From: Polyrhizophydium stewartii
Taxonomy: Eukaryota > Chytridiomycota > Chytridiomycetes > Rhizophydiales
Direction: 5' to 3'
NCBI GenBank assembly: GCA_027604665.1
Contig: JADGIZ010000246.1
Location: 1-18,201, forward strand
DNA length: 18,201 nucleotides
Both the position numbers and the translations under genes were made by a program. The notes beneath the pieces are model-generated. The model saw only the letters and a program-made list of their open reading frames with translations. It had not been told where the DNA came from and did not search any database. This document shows positions 1 through 18,201 of the stretch, in pieces. How positions within the stretch are numbered: position 1 is the first letter of the stretch; each line of letters starts with the position of its first letter.

Positions 1-1803
1 AAGGCACCCGAGAAGCCCGTTGTGTTCATGGAGGACATGACCGATGCCCAGATCGCCCAGGCGGTGAGGCCGGCCAAAGCTTGGCAGCGCGATGCTTGAC
101 GGGCTTCGCTGACGCACCTGCCCGCCCGCTCGCCCGGCGTAACCTGCTGCCAGCTCAAGCTACCTGCTGGCCTGACCAACCTGGGCAACACCTGCTACAT
201 GAATGCCACGATCCAGTGCCTCCGCACTGTGCCCGAGCTGCTGCAGGCGATGGAGTTGTATGTGGCTTCTCCTGCTCTCATTGATGGGCAGCTCTCAACC
301 TCGTGCTGACTGATCCCGACACGCAGGATGGAACCGCCGCGCGGCCAGGACCAGCACGCCAACCTGACGATCGCAATGCGTTCGCTCTTCCAGCTGCTTA
401 ACAAGTCTGGCGATTCTGTTCCGCCGCTCGTGTTCCTCCAGGTCCTGCGGTCCGTGTTCCCGCAGTTTGCCGAGTCCAACAACCACGGCTTCATGCAGCA
501 GGACGCGGAGGAGTGCTGGGGCCAGATCGTGCATGCCCTGAGTGATCGCGTGCCGGCTCTAACGCCGACGGGCGAGGTGGCCAAGGAGGGCCATTTTGTC
601 GACCAGTTCATGTCGACCGAGGTTATTTCGACGTGAGTTCTTGCATCATCGACGCCGTGGGACGTACCGCGCAACTGCATTGACATATTCGTGTGCGACG
701 ACCGCAGCACGACATGCGACGAAGTGCCTGAGGAGCCTGCGGCAACGACGATCGAGACGTTCAACAAGATGCGGGTCAACATCGGCCCCGGAGGTGAGCT
801 GCGGCTCGGTGCTCGGTCTGAAGCCCTTGTGCTGAAAGTGTCTGGCAGTCTCGACGTACCTCGTCTCGGAGATTGCCGCCAGTCTGACGGAGAAGATCGA
901 AAAGAACTCTCCTACGCTCAACCGCAGCTCCGTGTACACCAAGACGTCCAAGATCTCACGGTTGCCGCAGTACCTGGCCATCAACTTTGTCCGTTTCCAG
1001 TGGAAGCCGCAGGAGCGCGTCAAGGCCAAGATTCTCAAGGTAGCCAGGAATCGAGCCTTTTTTGCCCAGGGCTTCTGTGCTGACGACGCTTCCACTGCAG
1101 CGCGTGCAGTTCCCATTCGAGCTCGACATGACGCCGTTCTGCACGACGGAGCTCCAGCATAAGCTTGCGCCCGCCAAGCAGCGACTCAAGGAGGTTGCCG
1201 AGAAAAAGGCCGACGAGAAGGTGTGCAGGGTGCGTTTTGCTTCTCGTTTGATTCCGACATCTGACGAGACACGTTGCGCTCGACAGAAACGCAAGAAGCA
1301 GGCGCCGGCCGGAGACGTCGAGATGACACCCGCCGAGGGATCTTCGTCGGCCGCCCCGACTGCCGCTGACGCCAAAAAGAAGCACATGGCTGTTCTTGAG
1401 GAGATTGGCGTTGAGCCGAGCTTTCTGCAGGACCCCGGCGTCAATCCGTCGGGGCAGTACGACCTTGTTGCGGGTGAGCTGGTTGCGGTAGCCTGTTCTA
1501 TCCAGCCTGCACTGACGCTGACTGCTGCGTACTCAAGTCCTGACGCATATGGGTCGCGCCGCTGATTCGGGCCACTACATTGGATGGGCCAAGCAGGAGG
1601 GCAGCGACAACTGGTGTAGGTGCTGCGTATTGAATTGCGAAGCAACTCCATCCTCGCTGACAGTGATGCACCGCTGAAATATAGGGAAATACGACGACGA
1701 CAAGGTTTCCCAAGTCAAACAGGAGGCCATCACCAAGCTCGAGGGCGGCGGCGACTGGCACACAGCGTACATTTGCCTGTATCGTGCCAAGATGCTCGAA
1801 TGA
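1..1803 (+). CDS. USP14: Ubiquitin carboxyl-terminal hydrolase 14 (USP14/Ubp6 type), 5' partial
   Basis: Proteasome-associated cysteine protease that trims ubiquitin chains from substrates docked on the 19S particle. The exons I assign are 1-63, 154-257, 327-632, 708-793, 849-1039, 1101-1229, 1287-1473, 1538-1615 and 1685-1803 (420 codons plus TGA). All introns are GT..AG, 55-90 nt. The Cys box TNLGNTCYMN has its nucleophile at 193-195. The His box DSGHYIGW has its His at 1573-1575. The segment WWKYDDDKVS follows across the last intron, and GGGDWHTAYICLY lies near the C-terminus. The order of segments (VVFMEDMT, LPAGLTNLGNTCYMNAT, FPQFAES, KISRLPQYLAINFVRF, FPFELDM) follows USP14/Ubp6 rather than other USPs. 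The window begins inside the gene, so the N-terminal ubiquitin-like domain expected from the family (roughly 80-100 residues) lies upstream and is not seen. The family assignment is secure; single splice sites are less so, especially the stop-free 57-nt intron 1230-1286. Confidence 0.93.
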
Positions 1804-1939
1804 AGCGCCAAAGGCGGCGTTTGCCAGTCGGCGAAACGCAGCGATGCGGCACCTGATGGCAAAGCCCGACCGTGCCGGTCGAGATCTTAACCAGACAACA
1901 AACGTCTGCGTCGACACCAGCAAACAACGGCAGCCAGCT
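1804..1939. other. Intergenic/UTR gap between USP14 and dynein
   Basis: About 136 bases that must hold the USP14 3' end and the dynein promoter and leader. I see no canonical AATAAA and no TATA box. The dynein frame stays open through the whole gap, with ATGs at 1844 and 1856, so part of it could be dynein coding sequence. Confidence 0.4.
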
Positions 1940-4900
1940 ATGGACAGGAAGCTGCATGTGCCGTTGGGTCTCGACCCAACGGTTATTGCGGACCGCCCGC
2001 GCACGCTGGTGACGCCCACGCAGCTGCCGACGGGCGAGCCCGCGGCCATCGCACCCGCCGCGGCGCCACTCGGAAAGCGCGGCACTTTCAGCGAGTATGT
2101 GATGCGGCCGCTCGACTATCAGGAGCCCGCGTTTTTTGGGGCTCCCAAGCCGCTGCCGCCCATCTCCGGCAAGCCGCTGTACGTTGCCTCGTCGCTGGTG
2201 CCGTCGACCCGCTCGTTCAGACGGCCTGCGAGCAAGCGAGACTCGCTGGAAGTCCGCAACGCGGAGCGACGCTCCGCAGATGCCGAGCGTCTGCGCGACG
2301 AGACGCCCAAGGTGCAGATCAACTATCGCAAAGCGCTCGAGCCCAAGGTCATGTTGCCGTACGTATCGAGACCAGGCCAGACGCCGCGCAAGATCGAGAT
2401 TGAGCGCCGCAAGCGTGTGTATTCGATGCAGCGCGTTGACCAGCTCATCGTCGACGAGCTCGACATGCTCAAGGCGGCGGGTTTGATTGGGTCCAACCCC
2501 ATGACTGAGTTTGAAGCGATCCGCAACGAGACTCATACGGCGGCGCCGATGGCATCTCCTTCGCGCGCCGCTGCGTCACCTGCTGCCGCTTCACAAATCG
2601 ACTCTCAGTCACGGCCTGCCTCGTCTCGCGGTCCACTCCCTGCCTTGAGCGCCGATGCGACTTCTGGCGAGACGGCACAGCCCGTTGCAGCCGTTCAATC
2701 GGCGCAAGCGGGGTTCACAACCGAGTTCATTTCGAGCCAGCCGTCCGCAACGCCAGCCACCACAGACTTTTCGCATATTCTGCCGCTGCACATTTTCGAC
2801 GACTCCGAGTTCGATTCGCGGACCGTTGACGACTGGCTGGACATGTCGGTCGTGCTTGACGACCCGACACCCGAGGCGTTTGCTCGCATCGAACGTCTTC
2901 CGCGCAAGCGAGGCCTGTCTCGTCCCGATGCACCCGATATCCGCTACGCTGTCGTCCCGCTGCCCGCGCGCGCGTTCAACGGCTTCGAGTGGAGCGACTG
3001 CGTCGTTGTTGCGTATGACGATACAAATGGAAAATGGAAGGTCAAGTGGCGGTCATTTGACGGATGGCTGCTCGACCGAAAAACAGACGACGACGCACAG
3101 ATTGCATTTGACGCCGATGACGAGACTCTGCGGGCTGACTATGATCGACCAATGGCTGATCCGCGCGACGTGTCTGAGAAAGAAGCATGGCTTGACCGGT
3201 GAGGCGGCTGCAGCCGCGGTTGAATCTTTTGCAGCCAGCTGACTTCGAGTCTGTCTTTCTTGCACCAGGGTCAGCATCATGTTCCTCGCTGAAGACCCGG
3301 CAGTGTTTAGCCACCGAGTTTCCAAGGCATACCTCGACCGTTATCAGGTTGCACTCAAGCTTGTGAGCAACTCTTTCAATCGAAACACTGTTGGCCATGT
3401 CATACTGCTGACATTTTCGAAACGCTGGGCATCAACCAACCCAGAGGATTAGCTTCTACGTTGACTGCATGCCGACCGAAGAGGTTGCTGCGCATATATC
3501 TCCTGCGCAGATCAAGCGCATCATGGACATTGCCGGCGTCGACTCGCGGCAGTTCAAGCGCCTGCAGGGCTCACCTGCCATTGCCGCCCTCGTCAAAGAG
3601 TACTCGCTCGATTACGCGCGCACCATGAACTATCTGGTCTTCCAGAGCGAGGTCTCTGGGCCGCTTGGCCGCTCCAACTATCCCTCGATCGAGCTTCCTT
3701 TACCGGACCCACCTGCACACGTGCCTGTGTGAGTCTTGCGACCACGGATGCTGCTTTGTACGCACAAAGTCCGCTGCTGACGGCATTCACCCAGGTTTGG
3801 CAAAGCACAGTTACCGCAGTATGATTTTGCAGGCTGCGCCAAGGCATTTGGCTTTGCGTCTTTTCTCACAAAGGTCGAGGTTATCCGCACGCTTGCCAAG
3901 GTTCGCATCGAGTGCGACAGGCTTGCTGGCACAAATCTGTTTGCCACCAGCATCACCAAGACTGTCAAGATCGACGAGTTTGAGCAGCTGCAGGGCCAAG
4001 CGTTGCAGAATGTCAAGGGGAGCTTGAAAGACGGGTGCGTGCTGCCCGACAGGCTGTATTGCGCCTTTCGCAATCGTCTGATACAACTCGTGTCCTTTAC
4101 GCGCAGCTGGATCAATGTTCTGAAAAACATTATCAGGAGCGGCTTCAAGGACGTCGGAAAGGGCTGGTACAACATGCAAGAGTCCAATCTCGAGGTTTAC
4201 AAAATCAGCAAGCTGCGCAAGTTCATGACCGCAGTCAACTTTGTGATGCAGGACTCTCTCCGCTTCCTGGTGCTCAACTCGCTACAAGAGTACACCCGCA
4301 TGATCAGAGCCATCACGAGCCAGAAGGTGACCATCAACGCGACGAGCGATGTCAAAGTTGTCGATCCCGGCGCCAAGGAGCCACGCAAACCGCTGTTCAT
4401 GATCGATCTGGTATTCAAGGCTGGCAGGCTGCAGTACAACATTGATCCCGTCGTGTTTGAGGGCACGCTTATGGCCATTTTCGAAAAGGCCATCAGCACC
4501 CCCGAGAACTTGCCACAGCTCGAGCCTCTTGTGCTCGACCAAATGTTCTGGGCAGCCAAGCCGACGCTGCAGACGGTGCATTCCAAGGAGCCAGCGGTGA
4601 ACCGTCTGCGCGCGTCGCTGCAGCAAGCGATTCGCGATGGGCTTGCGCCGCTCGAAGCGTATCTCGGCCAGTTCGAGAAGCACCTCAAGCTGCTCAATCT
4701 CGACATCCAGCAGTTTGCAGCGCAGTACGAGTCCGAGAACCGCAGCGTCGACGAGATGGAGACGGATATTGTCAAGCACACGACGGAGTGGGAGACGCTC
4801 GACAAAGACATCCCAAATCACATCTCGCTCGGCCTCTTCTGGGTCAACTGCGACAGCCTTCGGTCGGCAATGCGCAAGGACCTGAGCAAGGTCATCCTCG

Positions 4901-7900
4901 AGCTGCTGAGTAAGCGCACGGCGCGGCTCGCGACGCAAATCTCGCAGTCGTTCTCGCAGGTTCAAACGCGCCTCAAGGAGCGGCCGACCAAGATCGAGGA
5001 GCTCATTGAGCTGCGCGAGTATATCAAGACCGTCCCCGAGACGTGCCGCGCGCTGCAGCAGCGCTTGCAGGAGATGCTGCACAACTACGAAGTTCTCGAG
5101 AAGCACCGCTTCGAGTGCTCCAACGAGGACGTGCGCGCGCGCTGGACGGCGTTTGGCTGGCCGCAACGCATCGACGAGATGCTCGTTGCGACCGAAGCCG
5201 CGCTGGCCGTCGACGAGGGCACGTTTGCGCGCAGCCTCGCGACTGACCAAGAGGTCTTTAAGGACCGCATCCACACGCTCACAACGCTCATTAGCGACTT
5301 TAGCAAGCACTCGGATCTCAGCCGCATCCAAGAGATTGTTGCCGAGGTCAACAAGATCACCAACGAGCTCAAGGACGCGCAGGCGCTGACAACTCTATTC
5401 AACAGCCGCGAGCGACTCTTCAACCTCGAGCCGACAAAGTACGAGGAGGTCTCTCAACTGGCGCGCGACTTTGAGCCCTACAAGAGCCTGTGGCTCACTT
5501 GCTCGGACTGGATGCGCTGGAAAGACCAGTGGATGCTCGGCAGTTTTCTCGAGCTCAACGCAGAAGATGTCGAGCGCAACCTCATGAACGCGTGGCGCAC
5601 AGTGTTTAAGAGCTTCAAGTTCTTCAAGAACACGCCTGGCTGCCTCGCCGTCGCAACCCAGGTCAAGGAGGAGATGGAGGAGTTTAAGCCGTATTTGCCG
5701 CTCATTCAGGCGCTGCGGAATCCCGGCATGCGCGATCGCCACTGGGACCGTCTCAGCGAGGAGCTCAGCATGAGCCTGCATCCCGACGCTTCGTTCACGC
5801 TCACTGACCTGCTTAAGATGAAGCTGCTTGACCGCGTCGACACCATCACCAAGGTATGCGACGTGGCTGGAAAGGAGTACTCTATCGAGAACGCCCTCGA
5901 CAAGATGGACGCCGAGTGGAAGGCCATCCAGCTCGAGATCATCGCATACAAGGACACGGGCACATTCATCATGAAGGCTTCCGAAGAAGTCACGCGCTTG
6001 CTCGACGACCACATTGTCATGACTCAGAGCATGAGCTTCTCGCCCTTCAAGAAGCCGTTTGCCGACCGCATCAATACGTGGGAGAGCAAGCTGCGTACAG
6101 TGCAAGAGGTGCTCGAGTCGTGGATGACTTGCCAGCGCTCGTGGCTGTATCTGGAGCCCATTTTCGGTAGCGACGACATTGTCACGCAGCTGCCGGTCGA
6201 GTCCAAGCGATTCACGACCATGGATCGCACATGGCGTCGCATCATGGGCCAGGCCAAGCAGAAGCCGGGGGTCATCGAGTGCTGCGGCGACTACAAGCTG
6301 CTTGACTCGTTCCGAGAGTGCAACAAGCTGCTCGAGCTTGTGTCCAAGGGCCTGTCCGCCTATCTGGAGAGCAAGCGCATTGCCTTTCCGCGCTTCTTCT
6401 TCCTCAGCGACGACGAGCTGCTCCAGATCCTGTCACAGACCAAGGACCCAACCGCCGTCCAGCCGCACCTGCGCAAGTGCTTCGAAAACGTCGCATCTCT
6501 CGAGTTTGCTGCCGACAAGAAGATCCTCGCCATGTACTCGGCCGAAGGTGAGCGTATCGACTGCTCGGAGCCGTTCTACCCCAAAGGCCCGGTCGAGGAG
6601 TGGCTCTTGCATGTCGAGGATCAGATGCGCCAGAGTGTGCGCAAGACGATCCGCGAGGCAATCGCGGCTTATCCGAACCGCCAGCGCACGTCCTGGGTGC
6701 TGGAATGGCCCGGACAGGCCGTGCTTGCCGGCTCGCAGACGTACTGGACGGCCGAAGTTACCGAAGCCCTCAAGACCGGCGTTGCGGGTCTCAAGGGCCT
6801 GTACGTCCGACTGCTCGCCCAGCTGCAGGGTCTCGTGGGGCTTGTGCGCGGAGAGCTTGCGTTTCTCAACCGGCTTGTGCTGGGCGACCTGATCGTCATT
6901 GACGTTCACAGCCGAGATGTTGTCAAGAAGCTCGTCGACTCCAACATCTCGAGCGACAACGACTTTGAGTGGATCAGTCAGCTGAGATACTACTGGGAAG
7001 AGGATCACCTGCGCATCAAAATCGTCAATGCCAACTTCAAGTGCGTATTTGCTTTGGGCTCGATGTTGGTCTTCTGCGTGCTGATCTTGTCTCCACCAGA
7101 TACGGTTATGAATACCTCGGCAACACGGGCCGTCTCGTGATCACGCCGCTCACGGACCGCTGCTATCTCACACTCACGGGTGCCATGCATCTCGGAATGG
7201 GTGGAGCTCCCGCCGGTCCCGCCGGTAAGCTGGTGCGTCGGTTGCGTACTTGCCAACGCTTTTGAGCTGACCAAAGATCCAGGAACGGGCAAATGCTGGG
7301 GCCGCGGCACGCGGCTGGTCATGCTCGATGGCACGACCAAGGCGGTCGAGGAGATCCGCGAAGGGGACGTGCTCATGGGGCCGGACTCAAAGCCGCGCAC
7401 CGTGCGGCCCGGCTCCATCACGCGCGGCACCGAGGCCATGTATCGCGTCACGGCGACGGGCAACGCCCGCATCTCGTGGACCTGCAACGGCCCGCACATC
7501 CTCGTGCTGCAGCTCAACGCCAAGCCAACCGTTGTAGCTGCCGGCGGCCGCTTCTTCGTCAAGACGTGGACGACGCGGCCCGGCACGAGCGCCGTCTCGC
7601 AGATCCCGTGTGCGGATCTCGTTGGTGGTGCATTCGCGACCCGCAACGACGCCGAGGCGTTCATCGACGAGCTTGTGCGCACCGAGTGGCAGCCACTCGT
7701 TTTCGAGTGCACCGTTGTCGATTACCTTGCCATCAAGGATGAGTCGCTGCGGCGGTCGCTGGCCATGTTCCAGCCGCCGCTGATCGAGTGGCCGTCGCCG
7801 GCCGTCTCGCTCGCTGAGAGGATCAGCGAGATGCGCGGCGGAGAGGCGTCGCTCGCCATGGTCGCCCAGATCGCATGGGCGATCGGCGTATGGCTGGCGC

Positions 7901-10900
7901 TGAGCACTGGTTCCGGCCGCGTCGAGACTTGCGAGCAAGTTCACTCGGAGTTTGAACGCATCGCGGCGATGCTCGGCGAGGGCGTGGCGGGCAAGCACGG
8001 ATCAGCGTTCTCGGTGCTGCTCGGATCGTACTGGCTGGCCCAGGCCACGCACATCCCGGGCGAGCTGATGACCGAGTGCCCGACGGTGCGCCGTGCGTTG
8101 CTGGCCGGACTCGTCGACTACAGCGGAAGCATTGGCAAGGACGGCGGCTGCACGATCACATCTGCATCGACAGGCATCATGACCGATGCAGCAAGCCTGG
8201 CTCGTGGCCTCGGTCTCGTCGTCGGAAAGTCGAACGAGCACGCATCCATCGCTGTCTGCGGCGCGGGCCTCACGGCTGTTGCCGAGCACATTGTGACCGA
8301 TGACAAGCGCCGTGCTGTCGCCGAGCTTGCATCAAGCGCATGCGGCACCGACCCGTGCTTTGGCTTCACGATCGAATGCGTCGGCGTCGAAGACTATTTT
8401 GGCTTCTCGCTCGACGGTCACGACGGCCGCTGCCTGCTCGAGGACTACACCGTGACGCACAACACCGAGACGACAAAGGATCTCGCCAAGGCACTCGCTA
8501 AGCAGTGCGTTGTGTTCAACTGCAGCGATCAGCTCGACTATCTGGCAATGGCCAAGTTCTTCAAGGGCTTGGCCGCATCTGGCGCATGGGCGTGCTTCGA
8601 CGAGTTCAACCGCATTGATATCGAGGTGCTTTCTGTCATTGCGCAGCAGATCGTCACAATCCAGAAGGCATGCGCTGCTGGCCAGACGCGCTTCATGTTT
8701 GAGGGCGTCGATCTGCCTCTTGATGCAAGCAACGCAATCTTCATCACCATGAATCCTGGATACGCCGGCCGCACGGAGCTGCCCGATAATCTCAAGGCGC
8801 TGTTCCGCCCGGTGGCGATGATGATCCCCAACTACGCCATGATTGCCGAGATCTCCTTGTTTTCGTTTGGTTTCTCCAACGCCAAGGTGCTGGCCGAGAA
8901 GATGGTGGCGACATTCAAGCTCAGCTCAGAGCAGCTATCCTCGCAGGACCACTACGACTTTGGTATGCGTGCGGTCAAGACGGTGATTTCCTCGGCTGGC
9001 AATCTCAAGCGCGAGCAGCCGAACGCCGGCGAGGACTTTATACTGCTGCGTGCGCTGTGCGACTGCAACTTGCCAAAGTTCCTAGCTGAGGACGTACCGC
9101 TCTTCAACGGCATCATCAGCGACCTGTTCCCGGGTGTCGAGCAGCCCAAGATTGACTACGGCGAGCTGCTCAAGTCTCTGCACTCCACGTGCGAGAAAAT
9201 GGGGCTGCAGCCGCAAGAGTCGTTTATCGCAAAGTGCATCCAGCTGTACGAGACAACGGTTGTGCGTCACGGACTGATGCTTGTCGGCCCAACGGGTGGC
9301 GGAAAGACGAGCTGCCTGCGCGTACTTTCGCGCAGCCTGAGCGCAATCGAAGGCGTCAAGGCACCCAACGGCAAGACAATCCAAAAGGTCCGCGTGCACG
9401 TGCTGAATCCAAAGTCTATCACCATGGGCCAGCTTTACGGCGAGTTTGACCAGCAGACCCACGAGTGGACCGACGGCATCCTGTCGTGCTTGATGCGCGA
9501 GGGTGTCGAGGACACAACGCCCGACAAGAAGTGGTATGTCTTTGACGGTCCGGTCGACGCTGTTTGGGTGGAGTCCATGAACACACTGCTCGACGACAAC
9601 AAGAAGCTGTGCTTATCGAGCGGCGAGATCATCAAAATGGCGACAACGCAGACCATGATGTTCGAGGTGCAGGACCTTGCGTTTGCGTCTCCTGCAACGG
9701 TCTCGCGCTGCGGCATGATCTACGTCGAGCCTGGCGCGCTAGGAATCTCGCCGCTGGTCAAGAGTTGGCTCAAGATGCAGGGAGTGTCGCTAGGCGACAA
9801 ACTCTATCCTGTGTTTGTGGCCGTGCTGCAGCCGATGCTGGACCACTATCTAGACGCGAGCCTCGAATTTGTGCGCAAGTCAATCAGGGAGGCTGTTCCA
9901 ACAACCAACGGCAATTTGGTTGCGAGTCTGCTGCGCATCATGGACTCGCTGCTCAAGCCGCTGGCGCAGCCTGGCGGAGAGAAGTCCGTGAGTTGTGTTG
10001 CGCATTTCGAGAAATACGTTGCAGTCAATGCTGATCCCGGCTCATTGATGCCGTGCAGCCAATCGAAGCGAACGATCTCAAGGTAGTCGTCGAGCCGCAA
10101 TTCCTGTTTGCGCTCGTCTGGTCCGTCGGCGCAACGGGCGATACAGAAGGCCGCAAAAAGTTCGACACATGGCTGAGAGGCCAGTTTGGCGCCAAGCCGC
10201 CCGCGATCCACATGCCGCACGAGGGTTCCGTCTACGATGTGATGTTTGACGTCGACAAGAAGGACTGGATCAACTGGATGGACATGCTCAATGAGGGCGA
10301 GGCGCAAGGCGGGGGCAGCAAGGGCGGTTCGGATGTCATTGTGCAGACCATGGACACGGTGCGCAACACGTTCTTGATTGACATTCTGCTCAAGAACGGC
10401 TACCATGTGCTCTGCACCGGCCCGACCGGAACAGGCAAGAGCGTCACGATCCAAGAAAAGTTGATGCGCGGCCTCGACCCCAACTGGACCCCCATCACCA
10501 TCAACTTTTCAGCTCGCACGAGCGCCAACCAGACCCAGGACCTGATCGACAGCAAGCTCGAAAAACGTCGCAAAGGCGTCTTTGGGCCTCCGGTTGGCAA
10601 GCGCTTTATCCTATTCATCGATGACCTCAACATGCCGCAGCTCGATATCTGCAACGCACAGCCGCCGATCGAGCTGCTGCGACAGTGGATGGACTGCCAG
10701 GGCTGGTACGACCGCAAGAACATTGGCAAGTTTATGGAGATTGTCGACATTTCGTTCATCTGCGCCATGGGCCCGCCGGGCGGTGGACGCAACCCGGTCA
10801 CAAGCCGATTCCTGCGCCACTTTAACCTGCTCAGCTTCGTCGAGATGGAGAATGCGTCTCTGCAGCGCATATTTACGACGATCCTCGGCTCGTTCCTCAG

Positions 10901-13900
10901 CAAGTTCCCGCCAGAGATCACCAAGAGCACCAACGCGCTTGTTGAGGCGTCCATTATCATCTACAACACGATCCGGTCGGAGCTGCTGCCGACCCCCGCA
11001 AAGTCGCACTACACCTTTAATCTGCGCGATCTCGCCAAGGTCGTCCAGGGCATCCTCAGTGCCGACCTCAAGACGGTCAATGTCGAGACTGACATTGTGA
11101 GGCTGTGGGTGCACGAGTGCCAACGTGTTTTCCAGGACCGACTTGTCGACAACACCGACAAAACGTGGTTCAAGAACCTGGTCATGAACACCATGACCGA
11201 CAAGCTCGATCTCTCGTGGGGCGAAGTCGTGCTGAGCGAGCCGCTTCTGTATGGCGATTACATGACGCCCGGCGCCGACCCCAAGATATACACAGAGGTC
11301 AAAGTGCGTGCAGCGCTCGACTGTGCGCTCAATGTCGATCCTCAAGCTGACATGGCTGACGCGCGGCTGTGATTCAGGACCTGCGCAGACTTGTCAAGCT
11401 CGCCGAGGAGTACCTCGACGACTACAACAGCACGTCGACAAGCCCGATGAAGCTCGTCATGTTCCTTGATGCAATCGAGCACGTCAGTCGCATCTGCCGC
11501 ATCATTCGCCAACCCGGCGGGCACGCGCTGCTGCTCGGCGTCGGCGGCAGTGGCCGCCAGAGCCTCAGCAGGCTCGCGACCTTCATGGAGGAGTTTGACC
11601 AGTTCCAGATCGAGATTTCCAAAAATTACGGCCAGACAGAGTGGCGCGACGATCTCAAGAAGGTTCTGTTTGCTTCGGGGCTCGACGGCAAGCCAACCGT
11701 GTTCCTGTACACAGACACGCAGATTGTGTCCGAGGCGTGTCTCGAAGATGTCAACAACATCCTCAACGGCGGCGACGTGCCCAACATTTACACGGGCGAA
11801 GAGATGGACCGCATTCTCAACACAATGCGGCCGATCGCGACCGAGCAGGCGATCCCGGGCACGCGCGAGAACCTCTTTGCGCTCTATATACAGCGCATCC
11901 GCGCCAATCTGCACATGATCATCTGCATGAGTCCAATTGGCGACGCGTTCCGCAACCGACTGCGCATGTTCCCGTCGCTCGTCAACTGCTGCACGATCGA
12001 CTGGTTCTCCACATGGCCGGAAGATGCGCTGCGAAGCGTCGCGGCAAACTCCATCTCTGAGATATCCGACCTCGGCTCCGAGGAGGTCATTGACGGCATC
12101 GTCAATCTGTGCGTGTTCATGCACGAGTCGGTCCGCGAGCGCTGCATCTCTTACCGCACAGAGCTCAACCGCAACAACTACGTCACGCCCAAGTCGTACC
12201 TCGAGCTGCTAGGCCTGTATAAGCGTCTGCTTGAGAAGAAGCGGAACGAGCTACTTGCCCTGCGCAAGCGCACGGCGACGGGTCTCGAGAAGCTGCTCAA
12301 CGCGACCAAGGAGGTCGAGATTCTTCAGGAGGAGCTCGAGGCAATGCAGCCGATGCTCATGCAGACGAGCCAAGAGACGGAATACGCCATGAAGAAGATT
12401 GCCGTCGACAAGATCAAGGCCGAGGAGATCAAGGAAAATGTCGTCAAGGAGGAACTCGCGTCGAGCAAGAAGGCAGAGGAGACCAAGGCCATTGCCGACG
12501 ACGCCAAGCGCGACCTCGACGAGGCGTTGCCGGCGCTCGACGCTGCCGTCGAATCGCTCAACTCGCTGTCCAAGAACGACATTATCGAAGTGCGCTCGAT
12601 GCAGCGGCCGCCAGAAGGCGTCAAGCTCGTGATCGAGGCCATTTGCATCATGAAGGGCATCAAGCCAAAGAAGGTCGACGGCGACAAGCCTGGAAAGAAG
12701 ATCGACGACTACTGGGAGCCCGGCCGCGCTTTGCTTGCCGATCCGCAAAAGTTCCTCGACAGCCTCATGAATTTTGACAAGGACAACATTGCCGAGAGCA
12801 CTGTCCAGCGCATCAAGCCGTACATCGACTCGCCAGAATTCCAGGTCAGCGTCATCTCGCGCGTGTCCAAGGCCGCGACGTCCATGTGCCAGTGGGTGCG
12901 CGCCATGGAGAAGTACTACTGGGTCTCGCGGTCCGTGGCGCCAAAGCGAGCGCGCCTGCAAGAGGCACAAGAGTCACTCGACATTACGCTCAAGGCACTT
13001 GCCGAGCTCAAGAAGAAGATGCGCGAGGCCGAGGTCAACATCAAGGAGATGGAGAAGCGCTACTCGGAGTCCGTGGCCAAGAAGGAAGAGCTCTCCCGCA
13101 AGGTCGAGGAGTGCAATGTCAAGCTGTCCCGCGCCGGAAAGCTCATCTCGGGGCTCGGCGGCGAGAAACAGCGCTGGGCCTTGGCCGTCGACCAGTTTGA
13201 CATGAAGATCAACAACATCATTGGCGACATTCTGCTCTCGAGCGGCGCGATTGCATACCTCGGCCCGTTCACGGCCGAGTACCGGAGCCTGCTGATGCGT
13301 GAGTGGATCGGCAGCGTGCTGCAGCTCAAGATCCCGCACTCGGAAAACACATCGCTGTGGGACTCGCTTGGCGACAACGTCAAGCTGCGCGAGTGGGAAA
13401 TCAGCGGCCTACCCAAGGACTCGCTGAGTCGCGACAACGCCATCATTGTGCACAACTCGCGCCGCTGGCCGCTGCTCATTGACCCGCAGGGCCAAGCCAA
13501 CAAGTGGATCCGCAACATGGAGAAAGAGCACGGGCTCGACATCATCAAGTTGACTGACCGCGACTTTTTGCGCACGCTTGAGAACGCGATCCGCTTTGGC
13601 AAGTCGGTGCTGCTCGAGAATGTCGGCGAGAAGCTCGACCCCGCGCTCGAGCCGGTGCTGCTGCGCCAGACGTTCAAGCAAGGCGGAAACACTGTCATCA
13701 AGGTGAGTCGGTCATGAGCGCAATGTTAGCGTGCGCATCTGCATGCATTCGGGTTCTGACGCGACCCAGGTCGGAGACAGCATTCTGCCGTACCACGACG
13801 ACTTCAAGTTCTACATCACCACGAAGCTGCCCAACCCCCACTACTCTCCCGAGACAAGCGCAACCGCGACGCTGGTCAACTTTACGCTCGCGCCAAGCGG

Positions 13901-16711
13901 CCTCGAAGACCAGCTTCTCGCGATTGTTGTCGCCAACGAGCGGCCCGACCTCGAGGAGGCCAAGAATCAGCTGACGGTCAACAATGCTCAGGTGAGCCTT
14001 GTCAGCTGTCCAATAATGCAAAGCGCCGCACGCCGGCTCACACTTGCGGTGCGCAGATGAAACGCGAGCTTAAGGAGATCGAGGACAAGATCTTGTACTT
14101 GCTCTCGTCGGTGCAGGGCAGCCCCGTCGACGACGAGCGCTTGATTGAAACGCTCGGCGCGTCCAAGGAAACGTCCGAGGAGATCCAGCAAAAGGTCGCC
14201 GCGGCGGAGCAGACGGAGCGCGAGATTGACACGACGCGCAACAAGTACGTCCCCGTCGCCGTACGCACGCGGATCCTGTTCTTCTGCATCACGGAGCTGG
14301 CCAATATCGACCCCATGTATCAGTACTCGCTCAACTGGTTCATGAACCTGTTTGTGTCGGCCATCAGCCACTCGGAAAAGTCGGACGACATTGACCAGCG
14401 CGTGGCTAACATCAACGAGTACTTTACCTTTTCGCTCTTCACGAACGTGTGCCGGTCGCTGTTTGAGAAGCACAAGCTGCTGTTCTCGTTCCTGCTCACG
14501 ATCCGCATCCTCATGAATGACGACAAGGTCGACATGGACGAGTGGCGCTTCCTGCTGACGGGCGGCGGCGCGCCAGACTCGAAACTGCAGAACCCGGCGC
14601 CGGACTGGCTGTCGGTACAGAGCTGGGCCGAGATCCTGGGTCTCGCAACGCTGCCGGCGTTCACGGGCTTTGACGCCGACTTTGTCGACTTTGTGCAGTT
14701 CTACATGGCCATCTTTGACAGCTCACAGCCGCACCGCGAGCCGCTGCCGGGCAAGTGGCAAAGCGAGCTCGACGGCTTCCAGAAGCTGCTGGTGCTGCGT
14801 TGTCTGCGCGCAGACCGCGTGACATCGGGAATCCAGGACTTTGTCGCCGCGCAGCTCGGCGAGCGGTTTATTGAGCCGCAGACGTCGGACCTGTCGGCGC
14901 TGTTCAAGGAATCGTCGCCCATCACGCCGCTGATCTTTGTGCTGTCGCCTGGTGCGGACCCGGCCAACTCGCTGTACAAGTTTGCCGAGGAGATGCGCAT
15001 GTCCAAGAAGCTGTCGTCTGTGTCGCTTGGCCAGGGACAAGGCCCGCGCGCCGAAGCCCTGATGAAGGAGGGCATGGAGCGCGGCATGTGGATCCTGCTG
15101 CAAAACTGCCATCTGTCGCCGTCGTGGATGCCGAGCCTCGACCGCATCATCGACTCGATCACGATGGACAAGGTCCACCGCGACTTCCGGCTGTGGCTCA
15201 CGTCGATGCCGACGCCAAAGTTCCCCGTCACGATCTTGCAAAACGGCGTTAAAACAACGCTCGAGCCGCCCAACGGCATCAAGGCCAACCTGATGCGCAA
15301 CTACAGCACGTTCAGCGAGGACTTTTTGAGCCAGTGCCTTAAGCCCAATGAGTGGAAGAAGCTGCTGTTCTCGCTGTGCTTCTTCCACGCCGTGATCCAG
15401 GAGCGCCGCAAGTTTGGCCCGCTCGGGTGGAACATCCCGTACGAGTTTACCGACGGCGACCTGCGTATCTGCATTCGGCAGCTCAAGATGTTTTTGGAAG
15501 AGTACGACGAGGTGCCCTACAAGGTGCTCAAGTACACCGTCGGCGAGATCAACTACGGCGGCCGCGTGACCGACGACTGGGACCGCCGGCTGATCATGAA
15601 CATTCTCGAGGACTACTACACGCCACGCGTGCTCGAGGACACGTACCGCTTCTCGACAAGCGAGGTGTACCGCTCGATTCCGGCCGAGTCGTACAATGCG
15701 TACAAGGCGTACATCAAGTCGCTTCCGATCGACGAGACGACCGAAATCTTTTCGATGCACGACAATGCCAACATCACGTTTGCGCAGAAGCAGACGTACA
15801 CGCTCTTTGACACTCTGCTGGCGCTGATGCCCAAGAGCAGCAAGAGCTCGTCGGGCAAGACGCGCGACGAGCAGCTGTCGGACATTGCGACCATGATCCA
15901 GTCCAAGATCCCCAAGCCGTTCCCGATGGAGTACGTGATGAAGAAGTTCCCGATCGAGTACAAGGAGAGCATGTCGACGGTGCTCGTGCAAGAGGTGATC
16001 CGGTACAACAAGCTGCTGTCGGCGATCCACTCGACGATTGTGGAGATGATCAAGGCGCTCAAAGGCCTGGTTGTGCTGTCCGAGTCGCTCGAGACGCTGT
16101 GCAACAGCATGTACATCAACCAGGTCCCGGCGCTGTGGGCCGCCAAGGCTTATCCGTCGCTCAAGACGCTGGCGTCGTGGGTCGTGGACCTGGTGCTGCG
16201 GTGCGAGTTTATCCAAAAGTGGATCGACCAGGGCATCCCCAATGTGTTCTGGATCTCGGGCTTCTTCTTCCCGCAGGCGTTCCTGACGGGCACGCTGCAA
16301 AACTATGCGCGCAAGTACGTGGTCTCGATCGATCTGCTGTCGTTTGAGTTCAAGGTCATGGACTCCAAGTGGGAGGACATTCGCGGCAAGCCCAGCGACG
16401 GCTGCTATATCCGTGGGCTGTTCCTCGAAGGCGCGCGGTGGGACGGCATTAAAAAGTTCCTCGCCGAGAGCCGGCCCAAGGAGCTCTACACGGAGATGAA
16501 TGTGATTTGGCTGCTGCCCAAGCCCAACCGCAAGCGGCCGGACACGGGCTTCTACGAGTGCCCCGTCTACAAGACGCTGACGCGCGCAGGCACGCTCTCG
16601 ACCACGGGGCACTCGACCAACTACGTGCTCACGATTGAGCTTCCGTCGGACCTGCCGCAGTCGCACTGGATTAAGCGCGGCGTGGCGCTGATCACGGGCT
16701 TGGCGTGGTGA
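1940..16711 (+). CDS. DNAH1: Axonemal dynein heavy chain, DNAH1 class, interrupted by an intein in AAA1
   Basis: ATP-driven motor subunit of an axonemal inner dynein arm. Exons: 1940-3198, 3269-3362, 3445-3728, 3795-4034, 4107-7040, 7100-7224, 7283-9987, 10059-11303, 11378-13702, 13770-13991, 14057-16711. They join into 14,088 nt without a stop: 4,695 residues, or 4,305 after intein removal, against about 4,270 for animal DNAH1. DNAH1-like marks run along its whole length: [15 protein letters not shown] (about residue 279), [35 protein letters not shown], the linker (about 1060-1480), AAA1 with Walker [13 protein letters not shown]2 [11 protein letters not shown]3 [11 protein letters not shown]4 GVGGSGRQS, the stalk (about 3243-3550), [25 protein letters not shown], and the C-terminal GHSTNYV and [11 protein letters not shown] Pro/Ala/Ser-rich linker occupies about 2537-2760. 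The start is uncertain: ATG 1940 has G at -3 and G at +4, but in-frame ATGs at 1844, 1856 and even 1784 (inside USP14) are possible. Confidence 0.95.
7225..7282 (+). other. 58-nt spliceosomal intron inside the AAA1 P-loop
   Basis: Donor GTAAGC at 7225, branch-like GCTGAC at about 7266-7271, acceptor CCAG ending at 7282, phase 1. Removing it joins GCC G to GA ACG GGC AAA and restores PAGTGK. Its 3' edge is 11 nt before the first intein codon. Confidence 0.9.
7294..8463 (+). mobile_element. Intein (390 residues) in the dynein AAA1 Walker A motif
   Basis: An in-frame protein-splicing element between Lys and Thr of GPAGTGK/T. It starts with Cys1. Block A is [13 protein letters not shown], followed by [17 protein letters not shown]. 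Block B is [12 protein letters not shown], with Thr63 and His68 at the spacing seen in VMA/PRP8-type inteins. Block F is [20 protein letters not shown]. Block G is VTHN, with penultimate His389 and terminal Asn390. The residue after it is the Thr encoded at 8464-8466, a valid +1 nucleophile and also the native Walker A Thr. The style ([17 protein letters not shown]...[10 protein letters not shown]) is that of eukaryotic nuclear and large-virus inteins. The ends TGC...AAC rule out a GT..AG intron. With every splicing residue present, I infer that it is active. Base composition looks like that of the host gene, which suggests long residence. Confidence 0.95.
7627..8358 (+). other. Degenerate LAGLIDADG homing-endonuclease domain within the intein
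   Basis: Intein residues about 112-355 lie between the two halves of the splicing domain. The second LAGLIDADG helix is clear: [13 protein letters not shown] at residues 269-281, preceded by HIPGELMT (block D) and followed by [11 protein letters not shown] and by CGAG..AVAEHI....KRR, the usual strand-helix order of this family. The first helix is [13 protein letters not shown] (196-208), where family members read LG.W.GDG. The catalytic Asp is Leu203 in motif 1 and Ser277 in motif 2. Loss of both acidic metal ligands predicts no DNA cleavage, although the frame is intact. The exact edges are approximate. Confidence 0.8.
8590..8613 (+). other. AAA1 Walker B of dynein
   Basis: Encodes WACFDEFNR, the Asp-Glu pair that activates water for ATP hydrolysis at AAA1. 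It is intact, which indicates that the gene encodes an active motor once the intein is removed. Confidence 0.9.
9286..9309 (+). other. AAA2 P-loop of dynein
   Basis: Encodes GPTGGGKT (precursor residue about 2314), the normal AAA2 Walker A of axonemal dyneins, where ATP binds structurally. It is uninterrupted, so among the P-loops only AAA1 carries an insertion. Confidence 0.9.
10419..10442 (+). other. AAA3 P-loop of dynein
   Basis: Encodes GPTGTGKS (precursor residue about 2668), the Walker A of the regulatory AAA3 module, followed by the usual [18 protein letters not shown] and [13 protein letters not shown] segments. Confidence 0.9.
11537..11563 (+). other. AAA4 P-loop of dynein
   Basis: Encodes GVGGSGRQS (precursor residue about 3016). 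Arg in place of the Walker Lys is normal for AAA4 of axonemal heavy chains and is not a lesion. It is followed by QIEISKNYG. Confidence 0.88.
12218..13150 (+). other. Dynein stalk: coiled coils and microtubule-binding tip
   Basis: Charged heptad-like sequence rich in Glu and Lys (about 12218-12560) forms the outgoing helix. The tip follows, with [17 protein letters not shown] and IMKGIKPKK, then [13 protein letters not shown] and the returning Lys/Glu-rich helix (about 12930-13150) ending near [12 protein letters not shown]. The order is that of DNAH1. Boundaries are estimates by eye. Confidence 0.8.
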
Positions 16712-16715
16712 TGCG

Positions 16716-16725
16716 TTAATATATC
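16716..16725 (+). promoter_or_regulatory. AT-rich patch TTAATATATC: polyadenylation signal of dynein or TATA-like box
   Basis: The only AT-rich patch in the 97-base gap, 5-14 bases after the dynein stop and about 84 bases before the next ATG. It contains AATATA, a known weak variant of the poly(A) hexamer, and TATAT, so it could serve either gene. This is a guess from position and composition. Confidence 0.3.
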
Positions 16726-16808
16726 GGCGGGTCTGTTGCGTCTGCTGTGGTGGTCGCCACGGTGGCGGTGGGTCGTCCGTTGGCGGGGCAGCCCCTGGTT
16801 TTCCCGCA

Positions 16809-17795
16809 ATGGACGAGACGGCGGTGCCAGACTCGGACATGTCGGCAGCGGCGGATTCGCCGACAGCGGCAGAGGCGCAGGACACGGCGGCAGGGGTGGT
16901 GGCCGAAGCGGAAGCGCCACCCCTGCCCCAGGGCGGCTCGCACTGGGACCGCCTGCCGCTCGAGATGGAGGACGAGGTCCTTGGGACGGCGGGCGTGCTC
17001 ACGCTCTGGACGGCAGGGCGCATCTCGACGGCGAAGCTGAGCGACCGCCAGCGGTTGCTGCTGTGGGAAGAGGCGATACTCATCGAGTGGAGCGGCGACC
17101 TTGCGACGCTGCCGCCGCCTGGCCGCGACGCAGGCGGCGTATTCAAGCTGGTGCGCACTCGCGGCATGTACGACCGCCTCAAGGAGCGCTGCGGCGACTG
17201 CCTGGAGACGCAGCTGCAACATATTGCCGCCCGAAACCGCTTCGACGACGAGCTCGACTTTGACGAAGGCCCCGCGCTCGCAGAGCTTGCTGCCGCCGCC
17301 GACGCCGTCGACCTTCTCGCCGACATCGTCGATGAACGCGAGTCGGCTGAGTTGGATGACGCGGTGGCCGAGGCTGCGGCAGAGTCGGGCAGCATGTCGG
17401 TGCTCCGATGGATCATGGACCGCGACGAAGCGCTTGTCCTGAAGAGCAACGTGCTAGACCGCGCGGTTCGCGGAAAGCAGACGGCCTGCATCGACTTCCT
17501 GCTGCCCAAGCTGGCGCCGGGCGATGTGGAAGTCGACAGGGTGCTTGGCACGGCGGGGCACGTTGGCGCGGTTGGTCTGTTCAACTCGCTGATTGCCCAC
17601 TTTCCCGGGCACAACATCCGGTGGGAAGCTGTGCTGCAGCGCGCCTTTAGCCGCAACAACTGCAGCTGCCCGAGAGACGTGATCTATTACAACCTGTGGG
17701 CGTTCACCCGGTCCCTCGTCGACCGCGGCTTTGTGGTCGAGTCGGCGGTCAATGCCATGATGGACGACTTTTGCGTGGGGCTGTTTGACTCTTGA
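16809..17795 (+). CDS. F-box-like/ankyrin-like repeat protein, unknown function
   Basis: A 328-residue intronless gene. The ATG has G at -3 and G at +4. Residues 1-40 are acidic, Ala/Asp/Glu-rich and low in complexity. SHWDRLPLEMEDEVLGTAG (44-62) looks like an F-box helix start (the LP.E....IL pattern). From about residue 165, units such as AAAESGSMSVLRWIMDR and LDRAVRGKQTACIDFLL have the helix pattern of worn ankyrin repeats. As I recall, proteins with a WDRLP.E start and degenerate ankyrin-like units form large families in chytrid fungi; that is memory, not a search. If the F-box reading holds, a role as a substrate adaptor of an SCF ubiquitin ligase would follow, but the sequence does not prove it. 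I see no signal peptide or membrane segment. Confidence 0.8.
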   Translation: MDETAVPDSDMSAAADSPTAAEAQDTAAGVVAEAEAPPLPQGGSHWDRLPLEMEDEVLGTAGVLTLWTAGRISTAKLSDRQRLLLWEEAILIEWSGDLATLPPPGRDAGGVFKLVRTRGMYDRLKERCGDCLETQLQHIAARNRFDDELDFDEGPALAELAAAADAVDLLADIVDERESAELDDAVAEAAAESGSMSVLRWIMDRDEALVLKSNVLDRAVRGKQTACIDFLLPKLAPGDVEVDRVLGTAGHVGAVGLFNSLIAHFPGHNIRWEAVLQRAFSRNNCSCPRDVIYYNLWAFTRSLVDRGFVVESAVNAMMDDFCVGLFDS

Positions 17796-17860
17796 TGCAT
17801 GGGAATGAAGTAGCATTTTGGTGTGTTTGCTCTGAGGCCGCATTGCTTGTGCGGGCTGGG

Positions 17861-17907
17861 CTGCCGGCGATGGCGATCTGCCGGCGATGGCAGTCTGCTG
17901 CGATGGC
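17861..17907 (+). repeat. Three 17-base tandem units, third degenerate
   Basis: CTGCCGGCGATGGC occurs at 17861 and 17878, and CTGCTGCGATGGC at 17895, an exact period of 17 bases. It lies in the 171-base gap between the ankyrin-like gene and the last gene, in the probable promoter or leader. Confidence 0.7.
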
Positions 17908-17937
17908 GGGGGCGATCGGTGAAACGAGGCGGCCGCG

Positions 17938-17963
17938 CTTTTCTTCGTTTTTTCCTCCATCCC
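17938..17963 (+). promoter_or_regulatory. Pyrimidine tract before the last gene
   Basis: Almost pure C/T, ending a few bases before the ATG at 17967. In fungal promoters such tracts often mark the transcription start zone; the role here is inferred from position only. Confidence 0.35.
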
Positions 17964-17966
17964 ACC

Positions 17967-18201
17967 ATGGGCCTGCTCTCGCTCAAGAAGATCCCCGTCG
18001 GCGTGAGTCGCCCCCCGTCGCTTCGGATCGCCGCATTCGCGGTGCACGCATGCAGCCTGCACTCCGCCGCATGCATGCGGCTGTAGCGCGGGCGTGCGGG
18101 CGAGCGGGCGGACCGCCACGGCACGCACCAGGCGCTGACAGCGGCGACCACCACAACGACGACCCAACCGGCCTCGTGCTGTTCAGGTTTACCCGCTCTT
18201 T
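17967..18201 (+). CDS. Start of a small gene, possibly B12D/NDUFA4-like mitochondrial protein (3' partial)
   Basis: ATG in a strong context (CCACCATGG), then 12 codons (MGLLSLKKIPVG) up to a GTGAGT donor at 18003. A 184-nt intron with a GCTGAC branch-like site at 18134 would end at the AG of 18185-18186, and exon 2 then reads VYPLF to the window edge. Joined, KKIPVGVYPLF resembles the start of the B12D/NDUFA4 (MLRQ) family, small single-pass proteins of the inner mitochondrial membrane that usually carry a VYPLFA-like segment there. Only 17 residues are visible, so the family is a tentative inference. Another acceptor (AG at 18140-18141) would give a different product. Confidence 0.4.
18066..18081. 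repeat. 16-base perfect palindrome
   Basis: GCCGCATGCATGCGGC equals its own reverse complement. It lies within the first intron of the last gene. No function is evident. Confidence 0.6.

Follow-up and report, generated by a model that had tools for sequence, protein, structure and literature searches.

The dynein gene of the window and its intein

An 18,201-nucleotide stretch of the chytrid Polyrhizophydium stewartii (assembly GCA_027604665.1, contig JADGIZ010000246.1, positions 1 to 18,201 of the forward strand), hereafter the window, contains an axonemal dynein heavy chain gene, assigned to the DNAH1 type by its best phmmer matches in the PDB. Exact block mapping of the deposited protein P0045 placed this gene in 11 exon blocks at 1940..16708 on the forward strand, on which all features of the window given below also lie. 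Two inserts are found in the Walker A loop of its AAA1 domain, GPAGTGKT: a 58-bp spliceosomal intron in phase 1 (7225..7282, GTAAGC...GAGCTGACC...TCCAG) and an intein of 390 residues between the Lys and the Thr (7294..8463). They are separated by a mini-exon, GAACGGGCAAA (7283..7293), which finishes a Gly codon and encodes the TGK of the motif, and the AAA1 exon 3′ of the intein extends over 8464..9987.

The intein is encoded by 1170 bp that form a 390-codon open frame, inserted in frame in a conserved host protein and retained in the deposited protein P0045. Cys1, His68, His389-Asn390 (window numbering) and the +1 Thr are present in all eight copies described below, and H68, which belongs to block B, is invariant across a 19-row alignment (alignment A1). 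The insert has the build of a full-length intein, with a Hint splicing domain and a LAGLIDADG endonuclease domain: the N-terminal Hint part (residues 1-100, 7294..7593) contains blocks A and B, and the C-terminal part (residues 358-390, 8365..8463) ends with THN. The Hint fold was found both by family matches and by a predicted structure match, and the nearest solved structures, by sequence and by fold, were the yeast VMA1 intein (PI-SceI) and the fungal Prp8 inteins; a scan of the intein against NCBIfam gave no match. By sequence family, motifs and predicted fold, 7294-8463 is recognisably an intein. A preliminary description of the window, made from the letters alone, had placed an intein at these positions, and family, motifs, predicted fold and site all agree with it; the 390-residue frame, Cys1, blocks A and B, the His-Asn end, the +1 Thr and the K|T position were found as it had claimed.

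That the insert is instead an RNA intron or an artefact of assembly has, in our judgement, a negligible chance of being correct. The insert is no RNA intron, since its edges, TGCTGG...CACAAC, lack GT...AG and the deposited model and protein retain it as coding sequence. In addition, its open frame has intein families and an intein fold, all eight copies are open and distinct, and the insert is under purifying selection. Assembly duplicates were considered and rejected, since the copies are all distinct and divergence of the host flanks approaches saturation; the six AAA1 copies other than that of C15 differ by 4-9% in DNA. An assembly error, which the preliminary description had named as a danger to its claim, is very unlikely given seven further copies, each different, on six other contigs.

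Eight copies in dynein P-loops

A search of the P. stewartii assembly with the intein found eight matches, all with open frames: that of the window, six with 87-92% identity and one with 44%. A profile search with Hom_end_hint returned those eight places and no other at an expect value (E) of up to 1, and all eight inteins are located in dynein P-loops.

AAA1 domain matches (24 in number) were present on 13 contigs, a lower bound for the AAA1 loci as the assembly may be incomplete. Host names were taken from the best PDB matches, using one exon per gene. An intein was found in AAA1 of seven of these contigs: C246, which is that of the window (DNAH1), C106, C74 and C15 (DNAH3/7/12 group), C59 (outer-arm gamma, DNAH5), C169 (outer-arm beta, DNAH9/17) and C49 (DNAH6). 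The scan of AAA1 P-loops that the preliminary description had proposed thus yielded six more inserts in the same assembly, and others in Entrophospora dyneins (see below). There was no intein at AAA1 in the remaining six contigs, of which C27 matches DNAH10 and C19 DNAH2, C7 and C45 are diverged, and C123 and C267 have P-loop contexts that we take to be of cytoplasmic type. Seven of the nine recognisable axonemal heavy chains therefore carry the intein. It is present in the outer-arm chains and in the DNAH1, DNAH3/7/12 and DNAH6 types, the last three presumably being single-headed inner arms, and it is absent from the two cytoplasmic-looking chains and from the DNAH2- and DNAH10-type chains, which we assume to form the two-headed I1/f pair.

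The outer-arm gamma gene on C59 has two inteins, one in AAA1 and one in AAA2 (C59:17988-19157 and C59:20178-21386). The AAA2 copy is the diverged eighth intein; it interrupts GPTGTGK|TKC and is accompanied by the same 58-bp intron. AAA2 loops were read in ten other contigs, and nine of them were uninterrupted (C246, C27, C123, C267, C19, C49, C15, C106 and C74). That of the window gene, GPTGGGKT at 9283..9309, is the empty counterpart of the site occupied by the eighth copy. The tenth, on C169, has no intein and contains an intron inside the loop.

Endonuclease domain and selection

Comparison of the predicted structure matched residues 185-351 of the intein to I-Tsp061I and residues 187-341 to I-DmoI, thereby identifying a LAGLIDADG fold (7846..8346). 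The domain is predicted to be inactive, as the catalytic Asp is absent. The first LAGLIDADG motif has Leu203 (WLALS, 7900..7902) where relatives have Asp (WLADG or WLGDG), and the second has Ser277 (LAGLVDYSG, 8122..8124), again Asp in relatives. In alignment A1 the catalytic Asp was absent from both motifs in all eight P. stewartii copies, and both were kept in all 11 aligned relatives, chosen from 43 search matches; Leu is found at the first catalytic place in each of the seven AAA1 copies.

The ratio of nonsynonymous to synonymous substitutions (dN/dS), calculated over these seven copies, was 0.14 for the N-terminal Hint part, 0.22 for the C-terminal Hint part (residues 361-390) and 0.37 for the endonuclease (residues 166-335). 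These values indicate that the splicing parts experience more purifying selection than the endonuclease part does, and that the latter is under some constraint despite the loss of the Asp residues. The low dN/dS in the Hint parts indirectly supports protein splicing activity.

Elsewhere in the assembly, the region C98:1900-3737 is AT-rich and has LAGLIDADG open frames and repeated segments; it is probably mitochondrial group I intron sequence.

A spliceosomal intron accompanies the intein

In all eight intein loci an intron of exactly 58 bp ends 11 bp 5′ of the intein. The mini-exon between them, GAACGGGCAAR, is identical in all eight save for its last base (A or G), and the GPA codons just 5′ of the intron vary between loci. 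The intron has GT...AG ends and a branch-like CTGAC or CTTAC, which we take to be the branch consensus; the window gene has nine further introns, which are 59-82 bp long. As 58 is not a multiple of three, removal of the intron is required for the intein frame, and the deposited gene model splices out 7225-7282.

Divergence of the intron (0.164 substitutions per site) and synonymous divergence of the intein (dS 0.170), both means over the seven AAA1 copies, are nearly equal, whereas the uncorrected proportion of synonymous differences (pS) in the dynein exons on both sides is 0.60, near saturation. Intron and intein therefore share one recent history which the host exons do not share. A search of the assembly for the intron core, allowing up to 3 mismatches, found only the eight intein loci, and a reversed control found none. 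At E 0.01, the element intron had a match on each of the other six contigs with an intein and on none of the six without one, and the nine other introns of the window gene, one of them cut one base off, had no match in the other dynein stretches, which were 7-10 kb long so that some orthologous introns may fall outside them. An introner family was considered as a candidate and rejected: near-identical introns in many unrelated genes were not found, all eight places being intein loci.

Since the intron is found only at intein loci, is equally young and has nearly saturated flanks, the apparent mobile unit is a composite of the 58-bp spliceosomal intron, the codons completing GTGK and the intein.

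Probable gene conversion among the copies

Over the intron, the mini-exon and the first 20 intein codons, the AAA2 copy on C59 differs from the copy on C169 at only 4 of 129 nucleotides; further in, DNA identity drops to about 50-60%, which gives the picture of a conversion tract. The seven AAA1 copies have 86 biallelic informative sites, and 55% of the pairs of sites are incompatible. Compatibility between nearest neighbours was above that in all 2000 permutations; at longer range the observed value was reached by 15 of 2000 (five neighbours), 127 (eight) and 425 (twelve). The mosaic structure of the copies points to gene conversion and shows that short tracts, the intron included, have passed between them.

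Two observations on the flanks, both picked post hoc, are suggestive of flank conversion. The first 60 nucleotides downstream are unusually alike in the pair C246/C106 only (95%, versus 71% beyond). The Gly codon of GP(A/T) is GGT in seven of the eight intein loci and in none of four intein-free loci, with a chance of about 2e-5 given that GGT was used at 6 of 36 places in one exon.

Related inteins and comparable systems

A tree of 36 intein rows, cut from part of the search matches, placed the AAA1 and AAA2 copies in one clade (99/96). Closest to them were the inteins of P0002, an Rpt4-like ATPase of the proteasome, and of P0003, a ribonucleotide reductase, host names that were given by eye, in a clade with the P. 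stewartii copies (95/91). Unlike the dynein intein, these two are not at a Walker A site, and unlike the P. stewartii copies they have the endonuclease Asp residues intact. A second tree of 31 rows omits four Prp8 inteins and P0031, which have long branches.

An intein at the same K|T site of AAA1 was found in three dyneins (P0050, P0051 and P0052) of Entrophospora, a genus of Glomeromycotina, two of them from sp. SA101 and one from E. candida; the protein names make no mention of an intein. These hosts are cytoplasmic-type dyneins, whereas the P. stewartii hosts are axonemal, and the window intein has only 26% identity to that of P0050 over its full length and 27% to that of P0051 over half. 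Like the P. stewartii copies, the Entrophospora inteins lack both endonuclease Asp residues, as read by eye from the motifs. P0050 has both junctions; the deposited models of P0051 and P0052 are imperfect and lose the C-terminal one. In all three proteins PFGPAG is missing directly before TGK, and extra DNA is expected 5′ of the TGK because the 18-base gap is too short for an intron. This indirectly suggests that Entrophospora also has an intron at or near the place of the element intron. A single clade of Entrophospora and P. stewartii inteins was not supported by the trees and was not rejected by the approximately unbiased test (p-AU 0.306).

The dynein intein resembles the VMA1 intein in having a Hint fold with an inserted LAGLIDADG domain, whereas the Prp8 structures consist of Hint alone. 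To our knowledge, neither the VMA1 nor the Prp8 inteins form a multi-copy family over paralogues; the dynein intein differs from both in its eight copies within one genome, the absent endonuclease residues and the co-travelling spliceosomal intron. Insertion in an ATP-binding loop (GK|T/S) is shared with the mycobacterial DnaB and Pyrococcus RadA inteins, and GK|Cys...His-Asn|T/S junctions occurred in many matches of the intein protein search. The hosts of DnaB and RadA inteins are replication and recombination ATPases, whereas here they are eukaryotic flagellar motors and an intron is added. The ATPase activity of RadA is reportedly disrupted without splicing (PMC8557812, PMC5790916). The WHO elements of yeasts are intein-related and replace part of a host gene with their own copy on integration (PMC7282813); unlike the dynein intein, they target FBA1 and do not undergo protein splicing. 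When relatives of the intein were sought among viral contigs, seven pattern matches came up, none of which was confirmed.

In Prp8 of Dispira parvispora and D. simplex (P0049, P0053), HN with a C or S after it, resembling the C-terminal end of an intein, was seen six and eight times respectively, and a single protein may there hold up to as many inteins as it has such ends. In the window itself, a gene for a ubiquitin-specific protease (Ubp6/USP14-like, by eye) is located at 310-1565, 5′ of the dynein gene and on the same strand.

Proposed mechanism and alternatives

We consider it probable, and hold with good confidence, that a splicing-competent intein occupies the AAA1 loop, and that it belongs to a composite unit that has spread by ectopic gene conversion. 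The sequences themselves show the family and the shared unit with its borders, and they show that this unit is young compared with the host paralogues, that the copies are mosaics and that the Asp residues are absent. From these we infer both splicing steps, a spread started by the endonuclease, and the direction of movement. The spliceosome would take the 58-bp intron out of the mRNA, and the intein would excise from the protein by attack of Cys1, transfer to the +1 Thr and cyclisation of Asn390, rebuilding GPAGTGKT; the ligated junctions expected after protein splicing are GPAGTGKTETTK, GPAGTGKTETVK and GPAGTGKTESVK. ATP binding by these motors would hinge on both reactions, and the motors appear to need RNA splicing as well as protein splicing before it. 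The unit would have spread over paralogous dynein P-loops through ectopic gene conversion, probably begun by the intein endonuclease while this was active, with the intron hitch-hiking as a co-converted flank; both catalytic Asp residues would have been lost afterwards, while gene conversion kept mixing the copies. That an active ancestor moved, its endonuclease failed and conversion then mixed the copies is the simplest reading. Spread of an already inactive form by gene conversion alone would be a stranger alternative.

Several observations weigh against parts of this model. With both Asp residues absent from all eight copies and the Leu shared by the seven in AAA1, the endonuclease had probably lost its activity by the time of their last common source; homing of the present copies by their endonuclease is unsupported, and older homing followed by homogenisation must be assumed. 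Co-conversion of flanking exons gave no general signal when compared with intein-free pairs. The intron presents a further difficulty. The intein-free DNAH10-type gene on C27 has a 77-bp intron (C27:30079-30155) at the identical phase-1 position, which could be older than the intein or have been left behind when an intein was lost. On C169 the AAA2 loop is split as GNSGTG / intron / KS from about 15390, in phase 1 in the Gly codon before the Lys; this intron is 6 nucleotides below the place corresponding to the element intron and does not match it. P-loop introns can thus arise or persist without inteins, and the intron position in AAA1 may predate the intein. Accordingly, the AAA1 P-loop could have had its intron ancestrally, with the intein as the sole mobile part, the likeness of the introns being due to conversion that homogenised adjacent sequences, as would fit mosaic copies that include the intron; the AAA2 copy on C59 would then be the sole clear case of intron gain. 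The C27 intron bears a weak resemblance to two of the eight element-intron copies, whose scores were reached by 32 and 68 of 1000 shuffles (uncorrected); it has no clear resemblance to the other six (137-936 of 1000). However, five of the six intein-free AAA1 loci have no intron at this place, and the element intron is found at intein loci only, including AAA2 of C59; of the ten AAA2 loops read elsewhere, nine lack an intron and one has a different intron at another base. We therefore regard an ancestral intron as possible but rather doubtful.

The presence of a distant intein at this site in the cytoplasmic dyneins of Entrophospora raises another question, namely whether the intein is ancient in dyneins, predates the duplication of the paralogues and has been kept alike by concerted evolution. 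A clade uniting the two groups was not rejected by the test given above, but both trees place the P. stewartii copies beside the Rpt4-like and ribonucleotide reductase (RIR1) inteins, with those of Entrophospora at a more distant or a different position. In addition, six AAA1 loci out of 13 have no intein, and a very old intein would have to have been lost nearly everywhere else; we find such antiquity improbable. Little credence can likewise be given to the idea that the endonuclease is active through other residues and that homing among P-loops goes on today. It would agree with the purifying selection persisting on the endonuclease region and with the P-loop codons that the target sites have in common. 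Against it stand the catalytic residues, gone from every copy and present in every aligned relative, the lack of any other Hom_end_hint match in the assembly, and the location of all three LAGLIDADG_3 matches on the AT-rich, mitochondrial-looking contig C98.

Novelty and implications

In the titles and abstract openings of the listed literature matches on inteins, there was no dynein intein and no intein-borne intron, and the word dynein occurs 0 times in the main text of a 2018 survey of eukaryotic inteins (PMC5784728). The preliminary description had suspected an undescribed dynein host, and within the literature covered this novelty holds. According to PMC2814812, introns are gained when genes recombine with others that contain introns; recombination as a carrier of introns is thus not new, and the intein as its vehicle is new as far as the literature was searched. 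Goodwin et al. (2006, PMC1635734) described ectopic intein movement as 'likely to be a very rare event'. In this one genome, seven occupied paralogous sites with a recent common origin imply that the intein moved six times or more, or that conversion overwrote sites, and one non-equivalent site, in AAA2, is occupied in addition.

On balance we favour the view that intein mobility has here been a route of spliceosomal intron gain, the unit, a composite selfish element taken out of its host partly by the spliceosome and partly by itself, having colonised P-loops in the majority of the flagellar motors and taken its intron to new sites. If so, at least AAA2 of C59 would be an entirely new site that the intron reached in this way, and several AAA1 sites probably received it likewise; the intein-free introns in AAA1 of C27 and AAA2 of C169 could have been left by earlier breaks or by the loss of inteins. 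With an intron-bearing unit, how introns move between genes becomes directly testable, in a species with deposited proteins.

The finding locates protein splicing at the catalytic loop of a motor of the cytoskeleton. In bacteria and archaea, P-loop inteins that splice conditionally have been described (PMC8557812, PMC7360933, PMC5790916). If the proposed model is true, flagellar assembly in P. stewartii would depend on eight autocatalytic protein-splicing reactions, and flagellar motility could be splicing-gated.

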